Under the pieces are notes generated by a model. The model was given only the letters and a program-made list of their open reading frames with translations. It ran no database searches and was not told the DNA's origin. Shown piece by piece: positions 13,589-44,388 of a stretch of 64,000 bases of DNA. Position 1 is the first letter of the stretch. Every line of letters starts with the position of its first letter. The DNA lies in the NCBI RefSeq assembly GCF_900167535.1, contig NZ_FUYE01000001.1, forward strand, positions 310,001 through 374,000, given 5' to 3'. Both the position numbers and the translations under genes were made by a program. This DNA comes from Prosthecobacter debontii. GTDB lineage: Bacteria; Verrucomicrobiota; Verrucomicrobiia; Verrucomicrobiales; Verrucomicrobiaceae.

Positions 13589-13612
13589 GAGTCATGCTCC
13601 GGCGCATGACTC
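13589..13612 (+). promoter_or_regulatory. Perfect 9-bp hairpin over the DUF1003 gene start
   Basis: GAGTCATGC (13589-13597) and its exact complement (13604-13612) enclose six bases. Both candidate start codons of the next gene (13594 and 13606) lie in the stem, so the folded mRNA would hide them. No U-tract follows, so it is not a typical terminator. Its role in translation is inferred. Confidence 0.5.
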
Positions 13613-14322
13613 ATCACTGTGCGGTCACTGGTCAACCCTTTCCCTCCAGCAAGCTGCGCCCGCTGGCCTCGCTCACCCCGCAGGTGGCGGAGATCATCCG
13701 CACGCAGCATCCTGGTCTGAAAGAGAGTGATCTCGTCAGTAACGAGGTGGTCAATGAAGCGCGCCTGGAGCATGTGCGCGTTTTGATGCAAAGTCAGTTA
13801 GGCGACCTCTCGCATTTGGATGAAGAGGTGCTGGACAGTCTGCACCGCCATGAGCTGCTGAGTGAGCGCCCGCTGGATGAGCAGGAGGAGGATCAGCAGC
13901 AGACGCTGGGGCAACTCCTGGCAGATAAGCTGGCCGAGTTTGGCGGGAGCTGGACCTTCATTCTGTTTTTCGCCGGGGTCATTCTGGTCTGGATTCTTGT
14001 GAATGTGACCGTCTTGGTGAACCGGGCCTTCGATCCCTATCCCTTCATCCTGCTGAATCTCGTGCTGTCCTGCCTCGCCTCCCTCCAGGCACCCGTGATC
14101 ATGATGAGCCAGAACCGCCAGGAGGCGCGTGACCGCAAGCGCGCGGAGAATGATTACAAGATCAATCTCAAGGCGGAACTGGAGATCCGGCACCTGCATG
14201 ACAAGATTGATTTCCTCCTGCACCAGCAGACGACTCGGCTGATGGAGGTGCAGCAGATCCAGGTGGAGCTCCTGCGTGAGATGGCCACAGGCCGGTCCGA
14301 GACCCGCCATCCGAAAGCTTGA
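13606..14322 (+). CDS. DUF1003 membrane protein
   Basis: A predicted inner-membrane protein of the DUF1003 family, whose function is unknown. After a polar N-terminal part (CAVTGQPFPSSKL, with a possible metal-binding Cys/His pair HHC), two membrane helices follow: FILFFAGVILVWILVNVTVL and PFILLNLVLSCLASLQAPVIMM. The loop between them holds the family-typical NRAFDPYPF. MSQNRQEARDRKRAENDYKINLKAE and a coiled C-terminal tail complete the domain. A start at 13594 adds four residues. It is followed directly by the AcvB-MprF fusion gene, only 23 bases away, so the two may be co-transcribed. Confidence 0.88.
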   Translation: MTHHCAVTGQPFPSSKLRPLASLTPQVAEIIRTQHPGLKESDLVSNEVVNEARLEHVRVLMQSQLGDLSHLDEEVLDSLHRHELLSERPLDEQEEDQQQTLGQLLADKLAEFGGSWTFILFFAGVILVWILVNVTVLVNRAFDPYPFILLNLVLSCLASLQAPVIMMSQNRQEARDRKRAENDYKINLKAELEIRHLHDKIDFLLHQQTTRLMEVQQIQVELLREMATGRSETRHPKA

Positions 14323-14345: not shown

Positions 14346-16889
14346 ATGTCGGCACCTTTTTCGCGGATACTGCGGCGGGTCGGGGTAGGTTTGATGCTGG
14401 TGGGCGCGGTGTGCGCTCAGGAGGATGAAGGGGAGGGGCCGGTGCCGCGAATGCAGGTGGCGCTGTCTCAGGGCCTGACCAAGGTGCGCGTCTATGAGCC
14501 GGATGAGGAGAAGCCGCAGGCGATTGTGATCTTCGGATCGGGGGATGGCGGCTGGTCCCCTTGGGAAGATGCTGTGGCGCACTGGCTGCGGGAGAGCGCG
14601 GTCATGGTGGTGGGGCTGGATCTGCGGAACTACGCTGCCAAGGACTATGATCAGAAGACCTTGGTGCATGACATGGCCACTCTCGCCACGGAGGCGGAGC
14701 GGCGCTGCGAGAGCAGCGAGATCCCCGTTATCTATGGCGGATGGAGCATGGGCGCGGTGCAGGCGGTGGCTGCCGCTGGCAGTGTTGAGCGGTCCCCACA
14801 ACTCCGGGGGCTGCTCCTGTTCAGCGCGGATAGCAGAGGGCGCTATGGGCTGCGGGAGAAGGATGAGCTGGGCATCACGCCCGAGGGGCCGGGCACCTTT
14901 GGGCTGGCGGAGTTCAGCGCTTTTATGAAGGACCTGCGCGTGGCGCAGTTCCATGGTGGGGCGGATTTCATGGCTTCGACGGCCTGGATTCAAAGTCTGA
15001 AATCCCCCAAAGCTCTGTATGTAATGCCGGGTGGCAATCATGGTTTCAACGGACCTGACGATGCCTTTCAGGCCTGGGTGACACGCGGGCTGGCCTGGGT
15101 GCTCGGGGATGACAGCGCTGCGGTGGCCCCGGCTCAGGAGGAACTGCCCTGGGGCCTTTCACCGCTGTGGCCGGCGGCGGCTTTGTCGGTGGTGCTGACG
15201 TTTATCTTTTTGTTATCCCGGCGGCATTCCTTGCGCATTCTGGTCTGGTCCATTTCCATCATGGGTGCCACGGGGCTGGTCGAGGCGCTGATTCTGAAAC
15301 CCTCCACGGTGTTGGATTGGATGGAGCAGTGGTTGCCGCTGGGTGTGCAGGATAACAGTCGCCTGCTGCTGCTCTTTTCAGGCATCGGGCTCATCACTCT
15401 GGCGCGGGGGCTGCGGCGGCATAAACGGATCGCGTGGTTGCTTGCCCTGATCCTGCTGAGTGTCTCGGTGGTGATCCATCTGACCCGCGCCTTTGATTGG
15501 CATCATGCGCTGGCCGCCGGGCTGTTGCTGGTGCCCTTGATCCGCTGGCGCTCGGAGTTCACGGCGAGGTCGGATGCGCCTTCACTGCGTCTAGCCTTTT
15601 TGGGGCTGCCGCTGCTCGCTGTCGGGCTGTTCGTTTACAGCGTCTTCGGCTTGCGCCAGTTCAGTGAGCGCGGCGAGTTCGGGGAGGCTTTGACGTGGGC
15701 GGATTGCTTCAGCGGTGCCGGGTCGGCCCTGGTGTGGCAGAAGAGTGATCTGGATATGGATGGCAGCCGGAAGGTGCGGCTGTTCTTATCTCATGTGCGG
15801 GGCGGCAGTCTGCTGGCCGCCTTGTTCGTGCTGGGGCTGACTTTGCGCCCCGTGCTGGCCTCGCGCTTGCCGGAGGCCTCGGTGGAGGATCGGGATCTCG
15901 TGCGCCGGATGATCGAGGCCGACGGGCGTGATCCGATGGATAGCTTCGCGCTCCTGGAGGATAAACGTTACTTCTTCAATGAGGATCGCACGGCCTGCAT
16001 CGCCTACGCACTCTGGCGGAAATACGCCGTGGCTTTGGCCGATCCCCTGGGGCCGGAGAGGGATCGAGCCGGGATGATCACAGCCTTTGCCAAGTTTTGC
16101 GGGCGGCAGGATTGGGAGCCGATCTTTTACTGTGCTCATGTGAGCAACCGCCCGCTCTATGAGGAGGCCGGTTTTGTGACGGTGAAGGTGGGGGAAGATG
16201 CGCGGCTGGATGTGGCGGATTTTAAGCTGGAGGGCGGTAAGTTTCAAAACCTCCGCACGGCCCGCAATAAAGCCCGGAAGAATGGCCTCACCTATGAGTG
16301 GTATCATGCCGAGCCGCACCCGGATCATGGCCTGGAGGCGCAGCTTCAGCTTTTGTCGAATCATTGGTTAGATCAAAAGCACGGCGGTGAGATGACCTTC
16401 GATCTGGGGAGCTTCAGCCTGCTAGGCATACGCACCCACGGGGCCTCCATCGTGCGCAATCCTGAAGGCCGCATGGAAGCCTTCGCCACCTGGCTGCCCT
16501 ATGCGCAGGGTAAGGGGCGCTGCCTGGATCTGATGCGGGCCCGTGAGGATGTGCGGGACGTCATGGACTTCCTCATCGTGGAGGCGATCGACCACTTCAA
16601 AACTCAGTCGGTGGAGCAGGTGAGTCTCGGCAATGCCCCGCTCGCCAATGTGGCTGCCGCCCAAGATCCTGCGGAACTGACTCGCGAGGAAAAAGCGGTG
16701 CAGTTCCTGTTTGAAAACTTCGATCGTTTCTATGGCTACAAGAGCCTGTTTAACTTCAAGAAGAAGTATCAGCCCGATTGGCAGGGACGTTATTTAGCCT
16801 ATCAACCGCGCACATCCTTGGCCATGGTCGGGCTCGCCGTGGCCGGGGTGCATTTGCCGCGAGGCTTTCGGGGTCTGATTCGCTCATAA
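14346..16889 (+). CDS. Fusion of an AcvB/VirJ-like hydrolase with an MprF/LpiA-type aminoacyl-phosphatidylglycerol synthase
   Basis: One continuous frame of 847 residues. After a signal peptide (to VCAQ) comes a periplasmic alpha/beta-hydrolase of the AcvB/VirJ family: GSGDGGWSPWE, the nucleophile elbow GGWSMGA with Ser134, and a late GGNHGF histidine. About seven membrane helices follow (about 260-500). The C-terminal third is a DUF2156 GNAT-like synthase domain (EDRDLVRRMI, DPLGPERDR, NLRTARNKARKNGL, FENFDRFYGYKSLFNFKKK). In Rhizobium and Agrobacterium, LpiA makes lysyl-phosphatidylglycerol, and the separate neighbour gene acvB/atvA encodes a periplasmic hydrolase of that lipid. Here both appear joined in one chain. 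The amino acid donor and the direction of regulation are unknown. The ATG at 14346 is preferred over an in-frame TTG at 14319. Confidence 0.87.
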   Translation: MSAPFSRILRRVGVGLMLVGAVCAQEDEGEGPVPRMQVALSQGLTKVRVYEPDEEKPQAIVIFGSGDGGWSPWEDAVAHWLRESAVMVVGLDLRNYAAKDYDQKTLVHDMATLATEAERRCESSEIPVIYGGWSMGAVQAVAAAGSVERSPQLRGLLLFSADSRGRYGLREKDELGITPEGPGTFGLAEFSAFMKDLRVAQFHGGADFMASTAWIQSLKSPKALYVMPGGNHGFNGPDDAFQAWVTRGLAWVLGDDSAAVAPAQEELPWGLSPLWPAAALSVVLTFIFLLSRRHSLRILVWSISIMGATGLVEALILKPSTVLDWMEQWLPLGVQDNSRLLLLFSGIGLITLARGLRRHKRIAWLLALILLSVSVVIHLTRAFDWHHALAAGLLLVPLIRWRSEFTARSDAPSLRLAFLGLPLLAVGLFVYSVFGLRQFSERGEFGEALTWADCFSGAGSALVWQKSDLDMDGSRKVRLFLSHVRGGSLLAALFVLGLTLRPVLASRLPEASVEDRDLVRRMIEADGRDPMDSFALLEDKRYFFNEDRTACIAYALWRKYAVALADPLGPERDRAGMITAFAKFCGRQDWEPIFYCAHVSNRPLYEEAGFVTVKVGEDARLDVADFKLEGGKFQNLRTARNKARKNGLTYEWYHAEPHPDHGLEAQLQLLSNHWLDQKHGGEMTFDLGSFSLLGIRTHGASIVRNPEGRMEAFATWLPYAQGKGRCLDLMRAREDVRDVMDFLIVEAIDHFKTQSVEQVSLGNAPLANVAAAQDPAELTREEKAVQFLFENFDRFYGYKSLFNFKKKYQPDWQGRYLAYQPRTSLAMVGLAVAGVHLPRGFRGLIRS

Positions 16890-20317: not shown

Positions 20318-20645
20318 GACTAGATCACAGCCTCATGAGCTAGGGGCTCCTGTCTCGTTGGACAAAGAAGGGGAGAATGTGGATGTGGTGTGTATATTAC
20401 GAATGGGGAAGGACCCTCCCCGTCGTCCTGGAAGGACGTGAGAGATTAGCCGGGCGGTGAAGCGAGGCACGAGCGTAACCCCAGGATTTGCGAACACGAG
20501 AGCGTGCATGCGCGGATCAAGCGTCCTGGAGGGACGCGAGAAAGGTGCCTGTCACCCCCCTCGTCTCCGACTTCTCCGTCATCCCCATTCCACAGCCAGC
20601 TACGTTCTCCCGTTGCGCATCGCCGATGGACGGAGACACTGCACG
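20318..20645. other. Gap of 328 bases between higA and the transposase, mostly REP-like sequence
   Basis: No gene is seen. About 20415-20549 is REP-like copy 2 in inverted orientation. The rest is unremarkable sequence that includes the transposase leader. Confidence 0.6.
20415..20549 (-). repeat. REP-like element, copy 2 (inverted)
   Basis: The reverse complement of the same plan as copy 1: hairpin CGTCC-TGGAA-GGACG (20424-20438), GATTAGCCGGG, GAGGCACGAGCG, then hairpin GCGTCC-TGGAG-GGACGC (20521-20537) and AAAGGTGCC. It lies about 97 bases before the transposase start. Confidence 0.75.
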
Positions 20646-21092
20646 ATGCCATCCACGCATCTATCTCTGCATTACCATCTGGTTTTCAGCACAAAGAATC
20701 GCGAGCCCTGGCTTTCCCCTACGGATCGAGATCGCGTGCATGAATACATCGGAGGCACCTTGCGGGGCCTGAACGGCATCGCCCACGCAGTCGGCGGCAC
20801 AGGGGATCATGTGCATGTGTTTGCCGGATTGCGTGCTACCCATTGCCTGGCGGATGTGATGCGTGAGATCAAGAGCGAATCCTCCGCCTGGATTCACCGT
20901 GAGCTGCGGATGGCGGGCTTTGCCTGGCAGGATGGTTACGGCGGCTTTACCGTCAGCGCGTCCAAGCTGGAGACCGTGCGTCAGTATGTATTAAACCAGG
21001 AGGAGCATCATCGGGTGAAGACCTTCCAGGAAGAATATGTGGCGATGCTGAAACGCGGTCTGGTGGCGTATAACGAGGCTTATTTGTGGTGA
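20646..21092 (+). CDS. REP-associated tyrosine transposase (RAYT), IS200-like
   Basis: A Y1-transposase-fold protein of 148 residues. The HUH motif is GDHVHVF (His55, His57) and the catalytic tyrosine is probably Tyr114 in VRQYVLNQEEHH. RAYT proteins are single-copy, chromosomally kept relatives of IS200 transposases that cut and move REP palindromes rather than their own gene. The gene is bracketed by REP-like units in opposite orientation (about 20415-20549 and 21112-21233), the arrangement typical of RAYT loci. No IS200-type TnpB is nearby. The ATG at 20646 is preferred over an in-frame start at 20457, which lies inside the REP-like unit. Confidence 0.9.
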   Translation: MPSTHLSLHYHLVFSTKNREPWLSPTDRDRVHEYIGGTLRGLNGIAHAVGGTGDHVHVFAGLRATHCLADVMREIKSESSAWIHRELRMAGFAWQDGYGGFTVSASKLETVRQYVLNQEEHHRVKTFQEEYVAMLKRGLVAYNEAYLW

Positions 21093-21332: not shown

Positions 21333-23639
21333 TTACAACCCCATCGGCTGATCTTCCCCGATCACCTTCACTTCCATCTCGAGCTGCACGCCGCGTTCGC
21401 GTTGGGCCACTTCTTGGATTTCGGCGACGAGGTCGAGCACCTGACGGGCGGTGGCACCGCCGCTGTTGACGATGAAGTTGCCGTGGATGTCGGAAACGAT
21501 GGCTTTGCCGACGCTGCGGCCTTTGAGGCCGAGGTCGTCGATGAGCTTACCGGCTCCACACACCTCGGGGTTTTTAAACGCGCAGCCGGCGCTGGCGCCC
21601 ACGGGTTGACTGGTGCGGCGTTTCTGATGGGAAGCGGCGAGTTTGGTATCAATCTCGGCCTGATCCGCAGGCGTGCCTTTGAGCACGGCAGAGACGATGT
21701 AGCGCTCCTCAAACTCCGGCACGCTGCGGTAATGATGCTGGATCTCGGCCAGGGGCTTCTCTTTGATCTGGCCATCGGTATCGATGAAGCGCACGCTGAC
21801 GATTTGGTCGAAGGTTTCCGTGCCCATGGCGCCAGCATTCATGCGGATGGCACCACCCAGATTTCCAGGCACGCCTTCCATCCATTCGAAGCCACCCAGA
21901 CCGGCATTGCGGGCGGCACTGGCGATCTTTTTCAAGCGAGTGCCGACGCCGACGATGAGGGTTTCACCCTCGACTCGGACGTCTTCAAACTCACCCTTGG
22001 ACGGATGGAGCACGGCACCGCGAATGCCACCATCTTTGACCAAGAGATTGGAACCACGACCGATCACACGAATGGGCACGGAGTGGGCGCGCAGGTAACG
22101 CACGATCTGGGCGAAACCCTCGATGCTGCGAGGCTCGATCCAATACTGAGCCGGGCCACCGATGAGGAAGGTGGTGTGACGTGCCATGGGCTCATAGAGG
22201 CGAGCCACCCCACCGCCGTGGGCTTCGAGCAGCGTCCACAGCTTTTCCAGCACCGGCAGATCGCGGGCGATGCAGCGTCCCACTTCATGGACATTGCCCG
22301 CGCCTAAGGTGATGAGCAGATCTCCTGGACGCAGGGTGTTGCCGACCTTGTCACGAGACAGCAGGAGGGTGGGAGTGGATTGGGCCTTGGTGGCGGACTG
22401 GGCTTTGACTTCTTCGACGATGGTTTCGCCGCTGACGCCGGGCAGAGGTTTTTCACTGGCGGCATAGACATCGGTCACAAAGAGTTCGTCCACATCGCCA
22501 AAGCTGGCACCGAACTCTTTTTTCAGAAGCTGGGTGCGGCTGTAACGGTGTGGCTGGAACAGGCAGACGATGCGCTGAGGTGCCAGCCCCTTGGCCGTGG
22601 CCAGGGTGGCGGCGATTTCGCTGGGGTGATGCCCGTAGTCATCCACCACCGTGAAGCGCTCACCACTGTGGCGGATTTCAAACCGGCGCTTGGCTCCACG
22701 AAAGCTCTTGAGGGCGCGTTGGATGTTTTCAAACGGCACGCCCAGCTTCGTCGCCAGGGCGATGGCAGCCAGGGCATTGGAAACATTGTGCTTACCCGGA
22801 ATGCCCAGAGTGGCGATGCCTAACAAAGTATCCTTTTGATACACTTCGAAGTCGGAATGATCCGGCTTCATGGCCAAGATATTCGCCGAGAAATCGAAGT
22901 CGCGAGACCATCCGTAGCTCACCCCCTGAGGGCCGCTGCACACTTCACGAGCGACCGGGTCCTCGGCGCAATGCACCCAATAGCCTGGGGTTTGAGAAAG
23001 GAGCTGGCGAAACACCGCCTTGATGGCCTCGATGCCATCGTAAAAGTCCAGGTGCTCGGGTTCGATGTTGAGGATGATGGAGTGCTGGGGATGGAAGTTC
23101 ACCAGAGTGCCATCACTTTCATCTCCTTCGGCCACGAACAGTTCACCTTCGTGATCCCAATGCGCATTGGCTCCCAGGATCGGGATTTCCGCCCCCACAT
23201 AGTGGCTGGGTTTCAGCCCGCCTTGGCGCAGCACGTGGGCGGTCAGCGCGGAGGTGGTGGTCTTGCCATGCGTGCCGCCCACGACCACGCCTTTTTTATT
23301 CGCCATCACTGCGGCCAGAGCCTCGGCCCGGCGCACCAGGGGGATGCCCTGCTTGTAAGCCGCCTCATAGGCCACGTTTCCGGGTTTGATGGCGCTGGAG
23401 TAAATGACCATGTCGCAGTCCTCCACCTCCTTTTCGGAGTGTGGGGAAAAGAACTGCAGGCCCAGCTTCACCAGGCGATCCGTCTCCAGGGTCGTCACCT
23501 TGTCCGAGCCGCTGACCTTGTGCCCCAGCGCCAGCAGCAGGGAGGCCAGCCCACTCATGCCCGATCCGGCCACGCCGATGAGGTCAATGCGCATGGGGTG
23601 ACGGCTTTCTTTGAGGAGGCTGAGGACGGCGTGGGACAT
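21333..23639 (-). CDS. MurC-MurB fusion: UDP-MurNAc-L-alanine ligase plus UDP-GlcNAc-enolpyruvate reductase
   Basis: Two consecutive cytoplasmic enzymes of peptidoglycan precursor synthesis in one chain of 768 residues. Residues 1-450 are MurC: Rossmann start DLIGVAGSGMSGLA, P-loop GGTHGKTTTSAL, and HPSEIAATL. From about residue 485 it is MurB: TTFLIGGPAQYW, VIGRGSNLLVKDGG, WMEGVPGNLGGAIRMNAGA, and SAGCAFKNP, where the usual serine of the SAGS-FKNP segment is cysteine. The substrate order is MurB first and MurC second, so the product of the rear domain feeds the front one. No other division or mur genes are adjacent. A TTG at 23648 is an alternative start; the ATG at 23639 is used, and MRIDLIG at about 23594 is also possible. 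Confidence 0.93.
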   Translation of the reverse strand: MSHAVLSLLKESRHPMRIDLIGVAGSGMSGLASLLLALGHKVSGSDKVTTLETDRLVKLGLQFFSPHSEKEVEDCDMVIYSSAIKPGNVAYEAAYKQGIPLVRRAEALAAVMANKKGVVVGGTHGKTTTSALTAHVLRQGGLKPSHYVGAEIPILGANAHWDHEGELFVAEGDESDGTLVNFHPQHSIILNIEPEHLDFYDGIEAIKAVFRQLLSQTPGYWVHCAEDPVAREVCSGPQGVSYGWSRDFDFSANILAMKPDHSDFEVYQKDTLLGIATLGIPGKHNVSNALAAIALATKLGVPFENIQRALKSFRGAKRRFEIRHSGERFTVVDDYGHHPSEIAATLATAKGLAPQRIVCLFQPHRYSRTQLLKKEFGASFGDVDELFVTDVYAASEKPLPGVSGETIVEEVKAQSATKAQSTPTLLLSRDKVGNTLRPGDLLITLGAGNVHEVGRCIARDLPVLEKLWTLLEAHGGGVARLYEPMARHTTFLIGGPAQYWIEPRSIEGFAQIVRYLRAHSVPIRVIGRGSNLLVKDGGIRGAVLHPSKGEFEDVRVEGETLIVGVGTRLKKIASAARNAGLGGFEWMEGVPGNLGGAIRMNAGAMGTETFDQIVSVRFIDTDGQIKEKPLAEIQHHYRSVPEFEERYIVSAVLKGTPADQAEIDTKLAASHQKRRTSQPVGASAGCAFKNPEVCGAGKLIDDLGLKGRSVGKAIVSDIHGNFIVNSGGATARQVLDLVAEIQEVAQRERGVQLEMEVKVIGEDQPMGL

Positions 23640-23699
23640 GAGCAGCAAAGCTAAGCGCAGCTTTCAGATCGAGCAAATGCACACGCAAAGGAATGCGTT

Positions 23700-37833: not shown

Positions 37834-40800
37834 ATGCAACGTTCTCACCCATGGACTCAGGTGAAAGCTTTTGCCGTCAGTCTTGCACTGCTTGCCTCTT
37901 CATCGGCCTTGCTGGCTGATACGGATTACGATGAAGATGGCTTCAGTGATGTCTGGCAGCAGATATATACCGCCTGGGGGCTGGCCCCCAATGGGGATGA
38001 AGACAATGACGGCTGCACCAATTACCTCGAAAGCATTGCCGGAACCAATCCCTGGGACCCGCTGGACTGTGTGAAAGTGGATGAAGCCACGGTCCTTGAG
38101 AATGAGGTGGTGATTCGGATGGCCTCGAAGCCCGGTAAGTTTTACCGACTGCTCAGCAGCGCCTCGCCGGGTGGGCCGGGCTGGACGAGTGAGGGGGAAG
38201 AACTCACAGGCACTGGGGAAATTCTCGAATTCATCACCCCACAATCAGGCGGTTCCTCACGCCGGTTTTTCAGAGTCGAGACCTATGACAAAGACAGTGA
38301 TGGGGACGGCGTGGAAGATTGGGCTGAAGCCATGACCGGTACCGACCCGGCTGAGTCGAATACCCTGACCAATGCCTCCGGTGGCTCCAAATCCGATGGT
38401 GAGGTGCTGAAAAGCCTGTTCGCACTGTCCTTCGCAGCGGTGGAGTCGGACAGTGAAGCCATTGAAAAGGAAGGCCAGACGGCACGCATTCGCCTCAGCC
38501 GACCTGCCGAGGTCAGTGCCACGGCGCTGACGGTGGACTTCAGTCTTTCGGATAATCCAGATCCGGCCAAGGGGTCGGCCAGCGGCAATGATTTCACCTT
38601 GAGCGTGACTCAGCCAGGCGGAGCGGTGGTGGGCACAGGCAGCGGCCAAGTAACGATCCCGGCTGGAGTGAGTACGATGGACATCATCGTCAATGCCACG
38701 GCCGATAGCGCTGCGGAGGTTCCTGAGCTGCTGACCATGCATCTTCAGCGGCCTGGGGAGGGCTTCGCTAATGTGCCGCTGGCGGCCACCGCCATGATCA
38801 AGGATGCTGACCCTGTGAATGAGGCCAATCGCACCTTGTTCGTCGCCTATCTGGGGAAAGAAGCGGGCGTGAACACGAACGCCACCGGCATTGCCACGGC
38901 TCTGGTGAATGGAGACAACGATGGAGCTGAGATCAGCCTCATGTTCAGCAATCTCACCTCGGCCCAAAACACCGCGTATCTGCGCATCGAGAACGACGAC
39001 ATCATCAACGTGGGGCTGGGGCAGGTGAGCGGGCGTGAATGGGCCATCCGCGCAGCCAGCATCAAGCTCACCGACCAAGCCATGCTGAATGCCCTGTATG
39101 CCGGCCAGCTCTACATCAGCATCACCACGGCAGACAATCCCACCGGGGAGATCCGCGGTTACTTCAACCGAGCCACCGGTTCGACCGATTTTACCTACAA
39201 TCCGAATCTCCATGGCGCTCCCACCCTGGGCAGCTCGAACTGGCTGGCACCGACTCCGGCGGAGCTGGAGCGGGACATCTGGCGCTTTTTGGATCAGTGC
39301 ACCTTCGGTGGCACCGAGAGCCTGTATCAGGAGGTGCTGGCGGAGGTGAATACGGCGCTGGGGAATGGCGGCACCTACTTGGATGGTTATTCCGCTTGGT
39401 TGGATAAACAAATCGCCTTGCCCAATCCCAGCCTCTTGGAGTTGACCTATGCGGCGGATAACGAGGAGTTTGTTCTCCGGGGCAATAAGCCGTTGTGGTC
39501 CGGAAATGACCCTCAGTTTGCCGGTGAATCCTACGGGGTGACCTTCGATAGCTTTTACGGAACGCCCACCATCAGTGCGACGTCTAACGGGACGTTTAAC
39601 AATAACCACCCTTTCCACAACAACCGTCGGCGTGAGCAGTGGACCCTGGCCATGCAGGCCAAGGCCCAGGTGCGGCAGAGGATGGCGCATGCACTCAGCC
39701 AAATCGTTGTCATCTCTGAGATCGATGGCACCGTGCAGAGTAAGCATTATGGCGCCGCCGCTTACTGGGACATGCTGGCTGACAATGCCTTTGGCCCCTA
39801 CCGCAGCATTTTGGAAAAGGTGACCTATAGCCCGATGATGGGCATCTACCTGAGTCACCTGCGCAACCGGGCCGAGTATGTCTCCGGCGGGGTCTCCATT
39901 TTCCCGGATGAAAACTACGCCCGTGAGATCATGCAGCTCTTCAGCATCGGTCTGGTGCTGCGTCATCCGGATGGCAGCCTCGTGCTCGGTCCAAATGGTT
40001 TGCCCATTGCCACCTACGACAATAGCGACATCACGGAACTGGCCCGCGTCATGACCGGCCTCTGCCATGGCGCAAGGCATGCTACCGCCTCCGTCCAGCG
40101 TTTCAATGGCCTCCACTTCGCCGCCTCTAGCCCACGGGTCGGCACCACGATTGAGATTCAAGGGGTGGACTTCACCGGCTTCAATGAGGGTGGGGGAGAC
40201 TCGTGGTGGCAGGCTCCCTGGATCTACCCCATGAAGGCGCTCGGACGCACCGGGACGGTGACCAGTGTCAACCGACCCATGCATGATTTCGCCGCCAAAA
40301 CGCTCCTGCACAATTATAACGGTGGGACGGCCATCCCAGGTCTGACGGACAGTGAGGTGAATGCCCTGAGCCTGGCGCAATCCAATCAGCGCGCGGATCA
40401 AGACATTGCCATTGCGCATAACCTGCTGGCCGGTGATCCGACATCCCAGACTTACAATGGACACCAGAACACACCCGTGAACATTTCCCGCTGGTTGATT
40501 CAGCGCTTCACGACGTCGAACCCCAGCGCCGGTTATCTCTACCGGGTCAGTCAGGTGTATCGGAATACGAATGGAAACCTCGGTAGTGTTTTGAAATCCA
40601 TATTGTTAGACTACGAAGCACGTAGCCTGCAGCTTGCGGATACCTCCATTTCCCATGGTCGCATCAAGGAGCCGCTGGTTCACTTCATGGCAGTCATGCG
40701 TGGTTTGAAAGCTTACACGGGATTGCCTGTGCAGGCCTTGAGAGACATGCAGCTCCCCTTCAGTGCGACGGACAGCCCTAAAAACACCCCCCTGTCTTCG

Positions 40801-42645
40801 ACCGAGTTCGATAAGTATCTGCCGAACGCCACACGCTTCCGCTTTTCCGATAGCACCACCGCCTTGGGGCAATCGCCCTTGCGGGCCCCTAGCGTTTTTA
40901 ACTGGTATCTCCCCGATTACATGGTGCCTGGGCCCATGGCTGCGGCTGGGGTTTTTGCTCCCGAGTTGCAGATCGCTTCCGAGACCAACCTAGTGAACCG
41001 CATCAACCGTCTCTGGACCTACACCTGGATGAATTTGGTCGGTATGGCCGTGCAGCCGGGGTCAGACTCCGGCGTGGAGGATGTGACCCAGGTTTCCACC
41101 AATGCTGCCGTGCAGGTGAAGGTGGGTTTGAATCAAAGCAATGCGAACAGCTTCGCTACCACGCAGACGCTGACGTTCACCTCGACGAACTACAACACGC
41201 CACAGACGATCTATGTGGCCGCCGTGGATGATAACATCCGTGAAGGCACCCACGTCACCTCGATCCAACATATGGCGACGAGTGCGGATGCCAGCTACAA
41301 CAATGCCGCCCTGCCTGCTCAATCCATCAGCATCACGGACAATGAAGGCACCACAGGTGCGGTTATCGTGGAGCAGAGTGATGATCTGACGGTGGTGTCT
41401 GAACACACTACCCCGGCGACTTACTCGGACACCTACACCGTGAAGCTGAGCAGCGCCCCCACAGCGAATGTGACGGTGACGGCCAATGCCAACGCACAGT
41501 TGGCGTTATCCCCAGCCTCCCTCACCTTCAGCACCAGCAATTGGAATACCCCGCAAACGGTGACGGTCACAGCCGTGAACGATGCTTTCTCCAGCGAGGT
41601 GATCCACATGGGCTTCGTCGGTCACTCCGTGGCGAGCACGGATGCCGCTTATGCGGGAGTGGCTGCGCCGAGCTTGACCGCCTTTGTCGGGGACAACGAT
41701 CAGGCGGGCAGCAATGGCATCACGGTGCGCCATACCGATGCCACGACGGTGGTGAAAGAGGGCGGTGGAACGGATCGCATCGTGGTGGCTCTGAATCGCG
41801 CGCCTACAGCCAACGTGACGGTCAGTTTAGGCACAAATGCCCGCATCACGAGAAGTCCCGCCAGCTTAACCTTCACGACGAGCAACTGGTGGGTGCCTCA
41901 GGTGGTGACGATCCAGGCAGTGGATGATGCCTTGGCCAATGGCGATACAACCTTCAACCTGTCTCTGAGTTCTTCCGGCGGTGGTTACAGCTCCACCGCG
42001 ACCGCTGCCATCACGGTCCTCGACAATGACAGCACCGCCGCAGGCAGCATCGTCATCACTCAGACCGGTGGCACGACTCAGGTGGCGGAAAGCGCCACCT
42101 TTAGCACGGGCACCCAAGACAGCTACACGGTGCGTCTCTCCAGCCAGCCGCTCTCCAATGTGACGGTGGTGGTGTCTCCCATCAAGCATGTGCGGCCCAT
42201 GTCGTCTTATGCCAAGCAGATGGGCTACTATGCCTCCGATTCTCCTGCCAGTACGAGCAACAACCAGAAAGACCGAGTGGTCTTCGATTACACCGACATC
42301 ATCACTCTTTACAACAGCACCTTCACCAGCAGTGGAGGGGTGACGGGCAGCAATGCCAATAACCTGAATGCTCATCTGGCCGCCACTCAGGCTGTGATCA
42401 ATAAGATGGATCTGATGTGGTGCGGGGGGCAGTTAAAGTCCCAATGGCCAGCGACTCTGACGACTACCGACCTCGCAGACACGGGGCTGATCAATCCGCG
42501 CAAATCCATCGTGGCGGGGGTCCTGTATGGTTACAGTACCAGCCGAGGCAGTTCGGAGAGTTCCTACGCTGCGGAGGTTCGCGACCGCTGCCGCATTGCC
42601 GCCTATCTCGTCAGCATCAGTCCGCAGTCATTCACTCTGAAATAA
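37834..42645 (+). CDS. Giant secreted DUF1800 protein with CHRD domain and an internal block of Calx-beta-like repeats
   Basis: 1603 residues with a signal peptide (about residues 10-28). An EF/TSP3-like calcium loop follows (DTDYDEDGFSD, GDEDNDGCTN). Next come a Calx-beta-like unit (about 200-330), a CHRD domain (about 330-450, LFVAYLGKEAGVNTNATG to EIRGYFNRAT) and DUF1800 from about residue 470 (DIWRFLDQCTFGG, REIMQLFSIGL, APSVFNWYLPDY). DUF1800 breaks off near residue 1070, after NRINRLWTYTWMNLVG, and resumes near residue 1450 with INKMDLMWCGGQL and RCRIAAYLVSISPQ. About 380 residues of Calx-beta-like repeats (each with TSNWNTPQTVTVTAV-like and ITDNEG-like blocks) lie between. Upstream of DUF1501, as in most DUF1800 genes. 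The pair is widespread in this phylum, and its function is unknown. Confidence 0.87.
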   Translation: MQRSHPWTQVKAFAVSLALLASSSALLADTDYDEDGFSDVWQQIYTAWGLAPNGDEDNDGCTNYLESIAGTNPWDPLDCVKVDEATVLENEVVIRMASKPGKFYRLLSSASPGGPGWTSEGEELTGTGEILEFITPQSGGSSRRFFRVETYDKDSDGDGVEDWAEAMTGTDPAESNTLTNASGGSKSDGEVLKSLFALSFAAVESDSEAIEKEGQTARIRLSRPAEVSATALTVDFSLSDNPDPAKGSASGNDFTLSVTQPGGAVVGTGSGQVTIPAGVSTMDIIVNATADSAAEVPELLTMHLQRPGEGFANVPLAATAMIKDADPVNEANRTLFVAYLGKEAGVNTNATGIATALVNGDNDGAEISLMFSNLTSAQNTAYLRIENDDIINVGLGQVSGREWAIRAASIKLTDQAMLNALYAGQLYISITTADNPTGEIRGYFNRATGSTDFTYNPNLHGAPTLGSSNWLAPTPAELERDIWRFLDQCTFGGTESLYQEVLAEVNTALGNGGTYLDGYSAWLDKQIALPNPSLLELTYAADNEEFVLRGNKPLWSGNDPQFAGESYGVTFDSFYGTPTISATSNGTFNNNHPFHNNRRREQWTLAMQAKAQVRQRMAHALSQIVVISEIDGTVQSKHYGAAAYWDMLADNAFGPYRSILEKVTYSPMMGIYLSHLRNRAEYVSGGVSIFPDENYAREIMQLFSIGLVLRHPDGSLVLGPNGLPIATYDNSDITELARVMTGLCHGARHATASVQRFNGLHFAASSPRVGTTIEIQGVDFTGFNEGGGDSWWQAPWIYPMKALGRTGTVTSVNRPMHDFAAKTLLHNYNGGTAIPGLTDSEVNALSLAQSNQRADQDIAIAHNLLAGDPTSQTYNGHQNTPVNISRWLIQRFTTSNPSAGYLYRVSQVYRNTNGNLGSVLKSILLDYEARSLQLADTSISHGRIKEPLVHFMAVMRGLKAYTGLPVQALRDMQLPFSATDSPKNTPLSSTEFDKYLPNATRFRFSDSTTALGQSPLRAPSVFNWYLPDYMVPGPMAAAGVFAPELQIASETNLVNRINRLWTYTWMNLVGMAVQPGSDSGVEDVTQVSTNAAVQVKVGLNQSNANSFATTQTLTFTSTNYNTPQTIYVAAVDDNIREGTHVTSIQHMATSADASYNNAALPAQSISITDNEGTTGAVIVEQSDDLTVVSEHTTPATYSDTYTVKLSSAPTANVTVTANANAQLALSPASLTFSTSNWNTPQTVTVTAVNDAFSSEVIHMGFVGHSVASTDAAYAGVAAPSLTAFVGDNDQAGSNGITVRHTDATTVVKEGGGTDRIVVALNRAPTANVTVSLGTNARITRSPASLTFTTSNWWVPQVVTIQAVDDALANGDTTFNLSLSSSGGGYSSTATAAITVLDNDSTAAGSIVITQTGGTTQVAESATFSTGTQDSYTVRLSSQPLSNVTVVVSPIKHVRPMSSYAKQMGYYASDSPASTSNNQKDRVVFDYTDIITLYNSTFTSSGGVTGSNANNLNAHLAATQAVINKMDLMWCGGQLKSQWPATLTTTDLADTGLINPRKSIVAGVLYGYSTSRGSSESSYAAEVRDRCRIAAYLVSISPQSFTLK

Positions 42646-42681
42646 GGCTCTTCGCGCGTTTCATTTTCATCCTTTCCCGTC

Positions 42682-44388
42682 ATGAATCTTTTTTCCCGTA
42701 GGACTCTGGATCGCAGCCAGCCCAACCGTCGTGACTTCATGGTGCAGAGCACCTGTGCGGGGCTCGGCATCACCAGCGCTGTGAATACCCTGGCCCATCT
42801 TCAGTTGGTGGGCACCTCGGCGGCTCAGTCCGCAGGGAATGATTATAAGGCCTTGGTGTGCATTTTCCTCAATGGCGGCTGTGATACGAATAACCTCCTG
42901 TTACCCATCGCAGGCACCGCACGGACCCACTATGAAAGCGGGCGCGGCATCCCTCAATACATCGATGCCAGTAAAGGGGGCGTCGCCATCCCTCTGGAGG
43001 ACATCACGGCCGCAGGCACCCAGATCAGTCCGTTGAATGCCGTCGGCACCTATGAGCATGCAGCGGGTTACATCGGCCAAGATGGCAGTGGCAATCGCAT
43101 GGCCGTGCATCCGGGGGCGTATCATCTCAAGACCTTGTTTGATGCTGAAGAGCTCTGCTTCATTTCCAATGTCGGCGTGCTCACGCAGCCGAATGTGACC
43201 CGGGCTAACTTTAGCGCGTTACCCATCTCGCAGAAGCCGCCGCAGTTGTTCTCCCACTCAGATCAGCAGACGCAGTGGCAGTCCTCCATCCCGGACAAGC
43301 CCTTCAAAAGCGGCTGGGGTGGGCGCTTGGCGGATCTGCTGGATGGCATCCACAATACAGACCCCAATGCGCTGTCCATGATGGTGTCTGTGAATGGCTT
43401 CAATAGCTTTCAGGTGGGCGTGCAGCAGCAGCCTTATGTCATGGGCTCATCGGGGGTGACATCGTTTTCTGGATTCGGCACCAACTACACCAACGGCCTC
43501 CTCACCTTGGGGCAGCAGCCTTACACGGGTTACAATGCCTTTGCCAATCCCGGCACCGCCAACTCGAACTACAAGAACAGCAATGCCGGCTGGCGCTTGG
43601 CGGCTCTGGAGCAGATGCTGGGCATGTCCCACGCCAGCTTGTTCGATCAAGGTTACGCCAATGTGGCCAAGAGCGCACGTGTGACGGAAGGGCTGGTGGG
43701 AGGCGCGCTCAGCATCACCGCCAATGGCTCGGCGACCACCCTGGACTCCCATTTCGTCAATGCCTTTGCAGGCACAGGCATCGATGGCCTAACCAATAAC
43801 TTTGCACAACAGATGCGCATGGTAGCCCGGTTGATCGTGGGAAACTCCGCCCTCAATAACAAACGCCAGATCTTCTTCGTGCAGCTTGGCGGTTGGGATA
43901 CGCATACCTCCCAGATCCCGGTGCTGAACAATGTGGCGCGCACGGATCAGAGCTACTACAGCCTGATGCTCCAGCTCTCCTGCGCCATGAAGGGCTTCCG
44001 GGATAGCATTCAGGGAGCTGGGATGTGGGACAACGTGACGGCCTTTACCGCCTCGGATTTCACCCGCACCTTTACGCCGAATAAAACGGACGCCACCGGT
44101 GGCTCAGATCACGGTTGGGGTGGGCACATGATGGTGATGGGCGGTGCGGTGCGTGGTAAGCGCATCTTTGGCACTTATCCAGATTTGACCGTCAATGGTG
44201 GCATTGATGTGCAGGGGAACCGCGGGCGCTGGATTCCCTCCACCTCGGTGGATCAATATGCGGCGGTCTTGGCCAAGTGGTTCGGCGTCGGCCCAGATCA
44301 ATTGAGTGCGATCTTCCCCAATCTCTCGCGCTTTACCGATCCCTTCACTCCGGCGGCGAAGCTTGAGTTTATGGACGCGGTGGCTTGA
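42682..44388 (+). CDS. DUF1501 protein, partner of the DUF1800 protein
   Basis: An exported protein of 568 residues with a twin-arginine-like signal (RRDFMVQSTCAGLG). The sulfatase/alkaline-phosphatase-like DUF1501 body has VCIFLNGGCDTNNLLLP at the start, QLGGWDTHTSQ in the middle and FTASDFTRTFTPN plus DHGWGGHMMVMGGAV near the end. The gene starts 36 bases after the DUF1800 gene, so the two are probably co-transcribed. DUF1501/DUF1800 pairs are common in planctomycetes and verrucomicrobia. Their biochemical activity is not established. Confidence 0.92.
   Translation: MNLFSRRTLDRSQPNRRDFMVQSTCAGLGITSAVNTLAHLQLVGTSAAQSAGNDYKALVCIFLNGGCDTNNLLLPIAGTARTHYESGRGIPQYIDASKGGVAIPLEDITAAGTQISPLNAVGTYEHAAGYIGQDGSGNRMAVHPGAYHLKTLFDAEELCFISNVGVLTQPNVTRANFSALPISQKPPQLFSHSDQQTQWQSSIPDKPFKSGWGGRLADLLDGIHNTDPNALSMMVSVNGFNSFQVGVQQQPYVMGSSGVTSFSGFGTNYTNGLLTLGQQPYTGYNAFANPGTANSNYKNSNAGWRLAALEQMLGMSHASLFDQGYANVAKSARVTEGLVGGALSITANGSATTLDSHFVNAFAGTGIDGLTNNFAQQMRMVARLIVGNSALNNKRQIFFVQLGGWDTHTSQIPVLNNVARTDQSYYSLMLQLSCAMKGFRDSIQGAGMWDNVTAFTASDFTRTFTPNKTDATGGSDHGWGGHMMVMGGAVRGKRIFGTYPDLTVNGGIDVQGNRGRWIPSTSVDQYAAVLAKWFGVGPDQLSAIFPNLSRFTDPFTPAAKLEFMDAVA

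Follow-up and report, generated by a model that had tools for sequence, protein, structure and literature searches.

Bacteria adjust their surface charge, acid tolerance and cationic-peptide resistance through aminoacylated lipids. Can a single polypeptide both make and remove such a lipid? The question is raised by a gene of Prosthecobacter debontii (Verrucomicrobiota; assembly GCF_900167535.1, contig NZ_FUYE01000001.1) that lies in the stretch of 64,000 nucleotides analysed here (positions 310,001 to 374,000 of the contig, hereafter the window). Its single chain carries, in this order, a predicted signal peptide, a VirJ-like alpha/beta hydrolase, seven membrane helices and an MprF-type LPG_synthase_C domain. 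A synthase for aminoacyl lipids and a VirJ-like hydrolase, predicted to lie on opposite sides of the membrane, are indeed paired in one chain: the fusion is conserved in many genomes and is therefore not an artefact. In the passages of the studies cited below the two opposing enzymes are separate proteins, and relative to these the single-chain form is new.

Domains and predicted topology of the fused chain

The gene is composed as follows (window coordinates; aa, amino acids; pLDDT, predicted local distance difference test score; PDB, Protein Data Bank; TM, transmembrane helix).

14346..16889, forward strand: whole fused gene, 847 aa, open from ATG for 847 codons
14346..14417, forward strand: predicted signal peptide (residues 1-24), read from a hydrophobic helix at the N-terminus, residues 2-23 (model, low pLDDT), and from hydropathy
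14418..15131, forward strand: VirJ-like alpha/beta hydrolase, residues 25-262 (PF06057; AcvB the top PDB sequence match; expected to be periplasmic)
15168..15215, forward strand: first (linker) membrane helix, spanning roughly residues 275-290 and positioned where MprF has TM8 or close to it, to judge from the VIA-align ends only
15228..15857, forward strand: six further membrane helices, corresponding to MprF Subdomain 2 (TM9-14) by NF033480 from profile position 319, VIA-align and loop charges
15882..16886, forward strand: LPG_synthase_C (two-GNAT) domain, residues 513-847 (PF09924; expected to be cytoplasmic)

An alternative in-frame TTG start at 14319 would give a product of 856 aa. Profile searches placed the N-terminal part in VirJ (Pfam PF06057; residues 60-182 on profile positions 3-125 of 191, score 38.6 bits where the cut-off is 22, E = 1.3e-9) and the C-terminal part in LPG_synthase_C (PF09924, formerly DUF2156; residues 522-819, 241.8 bits, E = 1.1e-71). 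The NCBIfam MprF profile NF033480 matched from residue 292 over profile positions 319 to 836 only, the window protein scoring 353.5 bits and not reaching the equivalog cut-off of 600, and PRK02983 (LysX) matched residues 341-833 with 153.9 bits, under its whole-protein cut-off of 742. When the PDB was searched by sequence with the hydrolase part, the significant matches were two AcvB entries only (9xhm, E = 1.5e-10; 9xhn, E = 2e-6), with the third entry at 0.085. The hydrolase motifs GSGDGGW, GWSMG and NHGF are present in the protein. A sequence-only reading of this DNA had described one uninterrupted frame with signal peptide, hydrolase, helices and synthase, had picked out these three motifs and had assigned the terminal domains to VirJ/AcvB and DUF2156; the open frame, the Pfam matches and the structural model bear this description out.

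That model, obtained with AlphaFold2 from 38 aligned sequences of the window and the loci (mean pLDDT 84; predicted template modelling score 0.65), shows an N-terminal helix, the alpha/beta hydrolase, seven membrane helices and the synthase, and the hydrophobic character of the first of these points to a signal peptide. The hydrolase domain modelled separately gave a pLDDT of 93.5, and a fold search with it returned many kinds of alpha/beta hydrolase (esterases, lipases and thioesterases) among the 50 matches listed. The synthase domain superposed on 6lv0 with a Z score of 31.0 and a root mean square deviation (rmsd) of 3.0, and on 4v35 with values of 30.1 and 2.9. By sequence, the nearest PDB synthase was the alanyl-phosphatidylglycerol (alanyl-PG) synthase 4v34 (E = 1.2e-44), the lysyl-PG synthase 4v36 coming second (5.1e-36). 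Nonsynonymous and synonymous divergence (dN/dS) from the gene of a congener (G187), a crude estimate from one gene pair, came to 0.20/2.05 for the hydrolase, 0.14/saturated for the synthase, 0.82/0.84 for the signal peptide, 0.32/1.29 for the linker and first helix and 0.25/1.96 for the remaining helices.

The seven helices of the model span about residues 275-288, 295-315, 337-357, 361-382, 385-400, 411-441 and 475-504. VIA-align placed model residues 268-837 on residues 298-860 of Rhizobium tropici MprF (7duw; Z 32.4, rmsd 9.9, 515 residues aligned); in MprF, Subdomain 1 comprises residues 24-325 and Subdomain 2 (TM9-14) residues 334-530 (PMC8131360). According to the model, the membrane part is MprF Subdomain 2 plus one helix in front, the remainder of Subdomain 1 being missing, and the alignment ends suggest that the extra helix sits at or near the TM8 place. 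The flippase core (Subdomain 1, PF03706) had no profile match in the chain, and the alignments begin at MprF positions 298-319. The seven helices had been counted correctly from the letters, but what had been taken for a reduced or different flippase is Subdomain 2 with one added helix and no PF03706 match.

A secreted N-terminus followed by seven crossings would leave the synthase in the cytoplasm. Short synthases encoded apart from their hydrolase lack the first helix of the fused proteins (alignment A2) and, in four that were inspected, have five to seven hydropathy segments ahead of the synthase, hence about six; a cytoplasmic N-terminus and six crossings would lead to the same cytoplasmic synthase end, which fits the missing first helix. 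Across 11 fused rows, lysine plus arginine amounted to 0.244 per residue in the predicted cytoplasmic loops versus 0.083 in the periplasmic loops P1 and P2, the long loop P3 (4.5 such residues in 43) being excluded from this ratio. Together, the model, the helix count and the charges predict a hydrolase outside and a synthase inside, on opposite sides as the sequence-only reading had supposed. A reversed topology of the LysX2 kind is not favoured, given the helix count and loop charges.

The pocket, the proposed cycle and its alternatives

On balance, we favour a single-chain enzyme of aminoacyl-lipid turnover, a tethered make-and-break device whose amino acid is probably not lysine. The cytoplasmic C-terminal GNAT pair would move the amino acid from aminoacyl-tRNA onto a membrane lipid, most likely phosphatidylglycerol, with diacylglycerol possible as with LysX. 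The lipid would cross the membrane by scrambling, either by Subdomain 2 or by another protein, and the periplasmic N-terminal serine hydrolase would cut the aminoacyl ester of lipid that had arrived in the outer leaflet. Subdomain 2 and the extra helix would tether both domains, holding maker and remover 1:1 at one place, and the fused protein alone would set the level and leaflet distribution of the aminoacyl lipid. We infer that both domains are active, which lipid and which amino acid are involved and how the lipid crosses the membrane. Of the earlier proposal that one chain makes and cleaves such a lipid on opposite sides, the two domains and their predicted sides stand, while the action of both on the same lipid is likewise inferred.

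The residues that bear on this proposal are listed below. Counts for the hydrolase refer to 27 relatives (alignment A4, without L046, which has a frame break, L045 and L068 at contig ends, the rearranged L069, L070-L073 and the genome-search loci), with the register to AcvB set by sequence alignment and, for His433, by position.

14544..14546, forward strand: Asp67, equivalent to AcvB Asp271, kept in 27/27
14745..14747, forward strand: nucleophile Ser134, equivalent to AcvB Ser336, kept in 27/27
14835..14849, forward strand: RGRYG motif, with Arg164 and Arg166 in place of AcvB Glu368 and Asp370, both Arg in 27/27
14964..14966, forward strand: Asp207, kept in 27/27, probable acid of a Ser-Asp-His triad (putative role)
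15039..15041, forward strand: His232, taken as AcvB His433, kept in 27/27
16527..16538, forward strand: synthase DLMR motif with Asp728 and Arg731, Asp and Arg in 25/25 synthase rows of A2

On the synthase side, the DLMR motif aligns with the DLMR of Pseudomonas A-PGS, and Asp728, Arg731 and Lys805 are kept in all 25 rows of A2 (38 rows in total, without the L063 synthase, the L054 and L063 hydrolases and the second L053 hydrolase). For the hydrolase, the point of reference is AcvB of Agrobacterium tumefaciens, which binds LpiA directly and hydrolyses lysyl-PG. Its D271A mutant showed strong and its D340A and D370A mutants moderate lysyl-PG build-up, with none for E368A; a docking model puts Asp370 close to the epsilon-amino group of the lysine, and Asp340 is conserved across the AcvB homologs that the source names. 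At the Asp370 place, Brucella abortus VirJ and Pseudomonas homologs, the latter with an alanyl-PG lipid, have Thr or Ser (all in the passages of PMC13197417). Because Arg in 27 of 27 relatives reverses the charge at the Glu368 and Asp370 places, lysyl-PG is an unlikely substrate of the fused hydrolase, as judged from the alignment; alanine or another small or neutral residue would probably suit the pocket better. Four canonical VirJ rows retain the acidic pattern at the places of Arg164 and Arg166, and the hydrolase beside a full-length MprF in G240 (L036) has Thr and Arg there. The Leu379 place of the AcvB membrane loop holds Leu in 17, Ile in 5, Val in 3 and Met in 2 of the 27. Loss of the neighbouring Trp anchor makes sense for a tethered enzyme. 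Split relatives have possible other N-terminal anchors, namely a lipobox-like VTGC (L066, L067) or hydrophobic N-termini (L053, L057, L060).

Synthase and hydrolase are also linked in the genomes. Across 387 surveyed genomes of the phylum, PF09924 at no less than 200 bits matched 7 full-length frames (852-884 aa) and 12 that are fused or short. The hydrolase was present in every one of the 12 genomes with the latter, in 11 of them in the same frame or adjacent and in one (G215) on another contig end, a figure that describes the top-scoring PF09924 class only.

Several observations weigh against the turnover enzyme that we favour. The place of AcvB Asp340 is held by Val in 7, Ala in 5, Gly in 1, Ile in 1 and Glu in 13 of the 27 relatives (Val in the window protein), that of Asp370 by Arg in every one, and that of the membrane-loop residue Trp378 by Trp in none; with these three places altered, the hydrolase may act on something else. 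AcvB was absent among the 50 fold-search matches listed, from a structure set that ends in April 2026 and may not include it. The hydrolase neighbours a full-length MprF in 2 of the 7 genomes (G186 and G240) and so is not confined to the short type, and the lower-scoring synthase frames of 480-541 aa (such as those of G367, G052 and family f29) had no VirJ match. The flippase core is missing from the chain, which bears on the lipid's route to the periplasmic hydrolase, and PF03706 was unmatched in 5 of the 12 short-type genomes (G215, G029, G085, G289 and G088); this profile gave two full-length MprFs only 26.8 and 32.4 bits, so that a missing match is no proof of absence. A standalone flippase partner was considered and is not indicated: PF03706 matched in 7 of the 12, the match in G003 being that genome's own full-length MprF, and there were two matches in the congener G196, which lacks the fusion.

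Might the hydrolase cleave a different periplasmic ester, as a lipase or esterase, with the fusion merely co-localising two lipid enzymes? The weak VirJ score, the altered pocket and the predominance of esterases and lipases in the fold searches would suit this explanation, but the only significant PDB sequence matches are AcvB, the hydrolase accompanies the top-scoring short or fused type in 12/12 genomes, and a relative in G078, a genome that gave no synthase match, has lost both Ser (GRGLG) and His (L032:7649-8353, reverse strand). We regard it as unlikely. A similarly low probability attaches to a one-chain vectorial cycle without flippase core, in which a lipid would be loaded inside and stripped outside and would serve as an inner-leaflet mark or as a carrier for amino-acid export; that lipid would be an undescribed one, and non-lysyl because of the invariant Arg pair in the pocket.

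That the chain makes and cleaves lysyl-PG in the manner of LpiA and AcvB, as the sequence-only reading had implied, is consistent with the VirJ and LPG_synthase_C assignments and with the Asp67 (AcvB Asp271) kept throughout. This chemistry is nevertheless unsupported and, in our judgement, quite improbable: Arg stands invariantly in place of the residue that the docking model of PMC13197417 puts near the lysine amino group, Arg likewise replaces Glu368, Asp340 is lacking and, as a weak sign, the alanyl-PG synthase 4v34 precedes the lysyl-PG synthase 4v36 among PDB matches. We give still less credence to a leaflet gatekeeper, destroying leaked aminoacyl lipid and keeping it inside, or to an exporter of amino acids on lipid at the cost of aminoacyl-tRNA. 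The predicted placement of synthase and hydrolase, the absent Subdomain 1 and the five short-type genomes without a PF03706 match agree with either, whereas Subdomain 2 might scramble lipid and the hydrolase also occurs beside full-length MprF (G240, G186).

Occurrence and origin of the fusion

The same domain order was found in one frame in other genomes. In a survey of the family (59 genomes, the window's own included), there were matches in 15, of which 11, again counting the window's own, have the intact single frame. The other matches are a gene with a frame break (G397), one cut across two contig ends (G215), a fragment (G391) and, in G405, two separate hydrolases with a separate synthase frame of 868 codons. 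Within the genus the fused gene is patchy (3/39 genomes). A pattern scan of genome contigs, which reaches close relatives, yielded 33 confirmed loci: 10 fused in one frame, one fused with a frame break (L046, a metagenome-assembled genome, MAG), 15 with the hydrolase directly ahead of a short synthase as separate genes on the same strand, 4 with neighbouring hydrolase and MprF-type genes (L070-L073, Bacteroidota and Pseudomonadota), 2 cut by contig ends and 1 rearranged. Every fused locus bears a label of Verrucomicrobiota or of a taxon within it; the split locus L060, labelled Bacteroidetes, groups with Methylacidiphilales and may reflect a binning error. In the phylum survey, which overlaps the pattern-scan set (for example, L050 is G003 and L045 is G215), VirJ matched in 17 of the 387 genomes. 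The hydrolase was fused in one frame in 7, lay at a contig end in 1 (G215), formed a split pair in 4 (G085, G289, G088, G366), stood beside a full-length-type MprF in 3 (G240, G186 and G265, the last with a broken hydrolase frame and a synthase running past the contig end), stood beside a broken synthase frame in 1 (G126) and was alone in 1 (G078). Plasmid records numbered 132 matches, none above 80% of the query.

Other arrangements were also seen. A MAG of the Methylacidiphilales has a tandem pair of hydrolase genes ahead of a short synthase (L053:5704-9243), and G003 (contigs C37 and C73; family f23) has a fused gene plus a separate full-length MprF. On contig C4 of the window's own genome (L038:6169-8256), an alpha/beta hydrolase gene (310 aa) is immediately followed, in the same orientation, by the gene of a second LPG_synthase_C protein, a soluble one (370 aa), so that this genome has a further pair of hydrolase and synthase.

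In a hydrolase tree of 36 sequences, a branch with support 99/100 separates the 17 fused ones from the rest; the canonical row L023/L077 sits on a very long branch, and the root is not usable. The synthase-domain tree of 45 sequences puts all 33 short-type rows on one side of a 100/99 branch, versus 12 full-length or other-phylum rows, and gathers the fused ones on one branch (84/79) nested among split pairs. For this tree L022 and L037 were dropped as short pieces, L046 was represented by its first piece only, and duplicates of other loci (L027, L029, L031, L035) and loci having no synthase were left out; alignment A3 is without L072 and L073. One fusion event would explain the trees most simply, the synthase tree by itself being no proof. 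In the synthase tree, a group of 12 with the window's family (99/95) contains a branch that holds four fused rows: L049, L051 and, from family f23, which lies outside the window's class, L025 and L050. This placement suggests transfer between lineages.

An assembly or frameshift artefact joining two genes can be set aside with near certainty: frame breaks do occur elsewhere in the gene in L046 and G397, but the window gives no sign of one, the same single frame is present in 11/59 family genomes and 10/33 loci, isolates included, so that homologs are not always two genes, and the fused chain has a first membrane helix that split synthases lack.

Related systems and neighbouring genes

The fusion corresponds, in covalent form, to the AcvB-LpiA complex described in 2026, but it lacks the flippase core and its pocket speaks against lysine. 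Common to both is a VirJ-family periplasmic Ser-His hydrolase with an aminoacyl-PG synthase (PMC13197417, PMC13135905). In those accounts, AcvB and LpiA are two proteins whose physical contact was shown; LpiA is a full-length flippase-synthase, whereas the flippase core is missing here; and AcvB has Asp340, Asp370 and Trp378, none of which the fused hydrolase has. With MprF of R. tropici and Pseudomonas aeruginosa, as described in PMC8131360 and PMC11980842, the chain shares Subdomain 2 (TM9-14) and the two-GNAT synthase; unlike them, it is without Subdomain 1 and has a hydrolase in its place.

Short MprF relatives are known from Actinobacteria, and a reduced membrane part thus has precedents. 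With six predicted helices, LysX and AlaDAGS produce lysyl-diacylglycerol, or alanyl-diacylglycerol and alanyl-PG; no fused hydrolase figures in the passages of PMC10580965, and LysX carries a lysyl-tRNA synthetase, whereas the chain here ends after the synthase domain. LysX2 of Mycobacterium tuberculosis, also a short relative, has four helices and an extracytoplasmic MprF-like domain (PMC8974105), whereas helix count and charges here place the synthase inside. MprF transport or synthase parts have likewise been recombined with lipid modules, in fusions with other enzymes or DedA; none of those named in PMC11980842 has a hydrolase replacing the flippase core. Among the matches listed in a search of the open-access literature there was no hydrolase fused to this synthase, though an earlier mention is possible and family databases may list the domain pair with no remark on it. 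As a natural 1:1 fusion, the chain is independent evolutionary evidence that maker and remover belong to one module, an idea put forward for AcvB-LpiA in 2026. Within this one polypeptide the two steps can be disabled one at a time, the absence of the flippase core makes it possible to test whether lipid is moved by Subdomain 2, and the Arg pair predicts a substrate other than lysyl-PG.

Directly upstream of the fused gene lies a gene for a DUF1003 membrane protein (13594-14322, forward strand). Among 49 loci compared, a relative adjoins the fused gene at L028 (G187), at L024 and L045 (both G215) and at L043, and at none of the others, with Verrucomicrobium BvORR106 among the genomes that have it; the wider gene order is shared with L028 only. 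The neighbourhood as a functional clue was rejected, the context being shared too rarely to give a function. Elsewhere in the window, an IS200-type transposase gene (Y1_Tnp) lies near metX (20457-21092, forward strand), one frame of 771 codons joins MurC and MurB domains (21333-23648, reverse strand), and a DUF1800 protein of 1603 aa with CHRD and Calx-beta matches is followed by a DUF1501 protein (37834-44388, forward strand).

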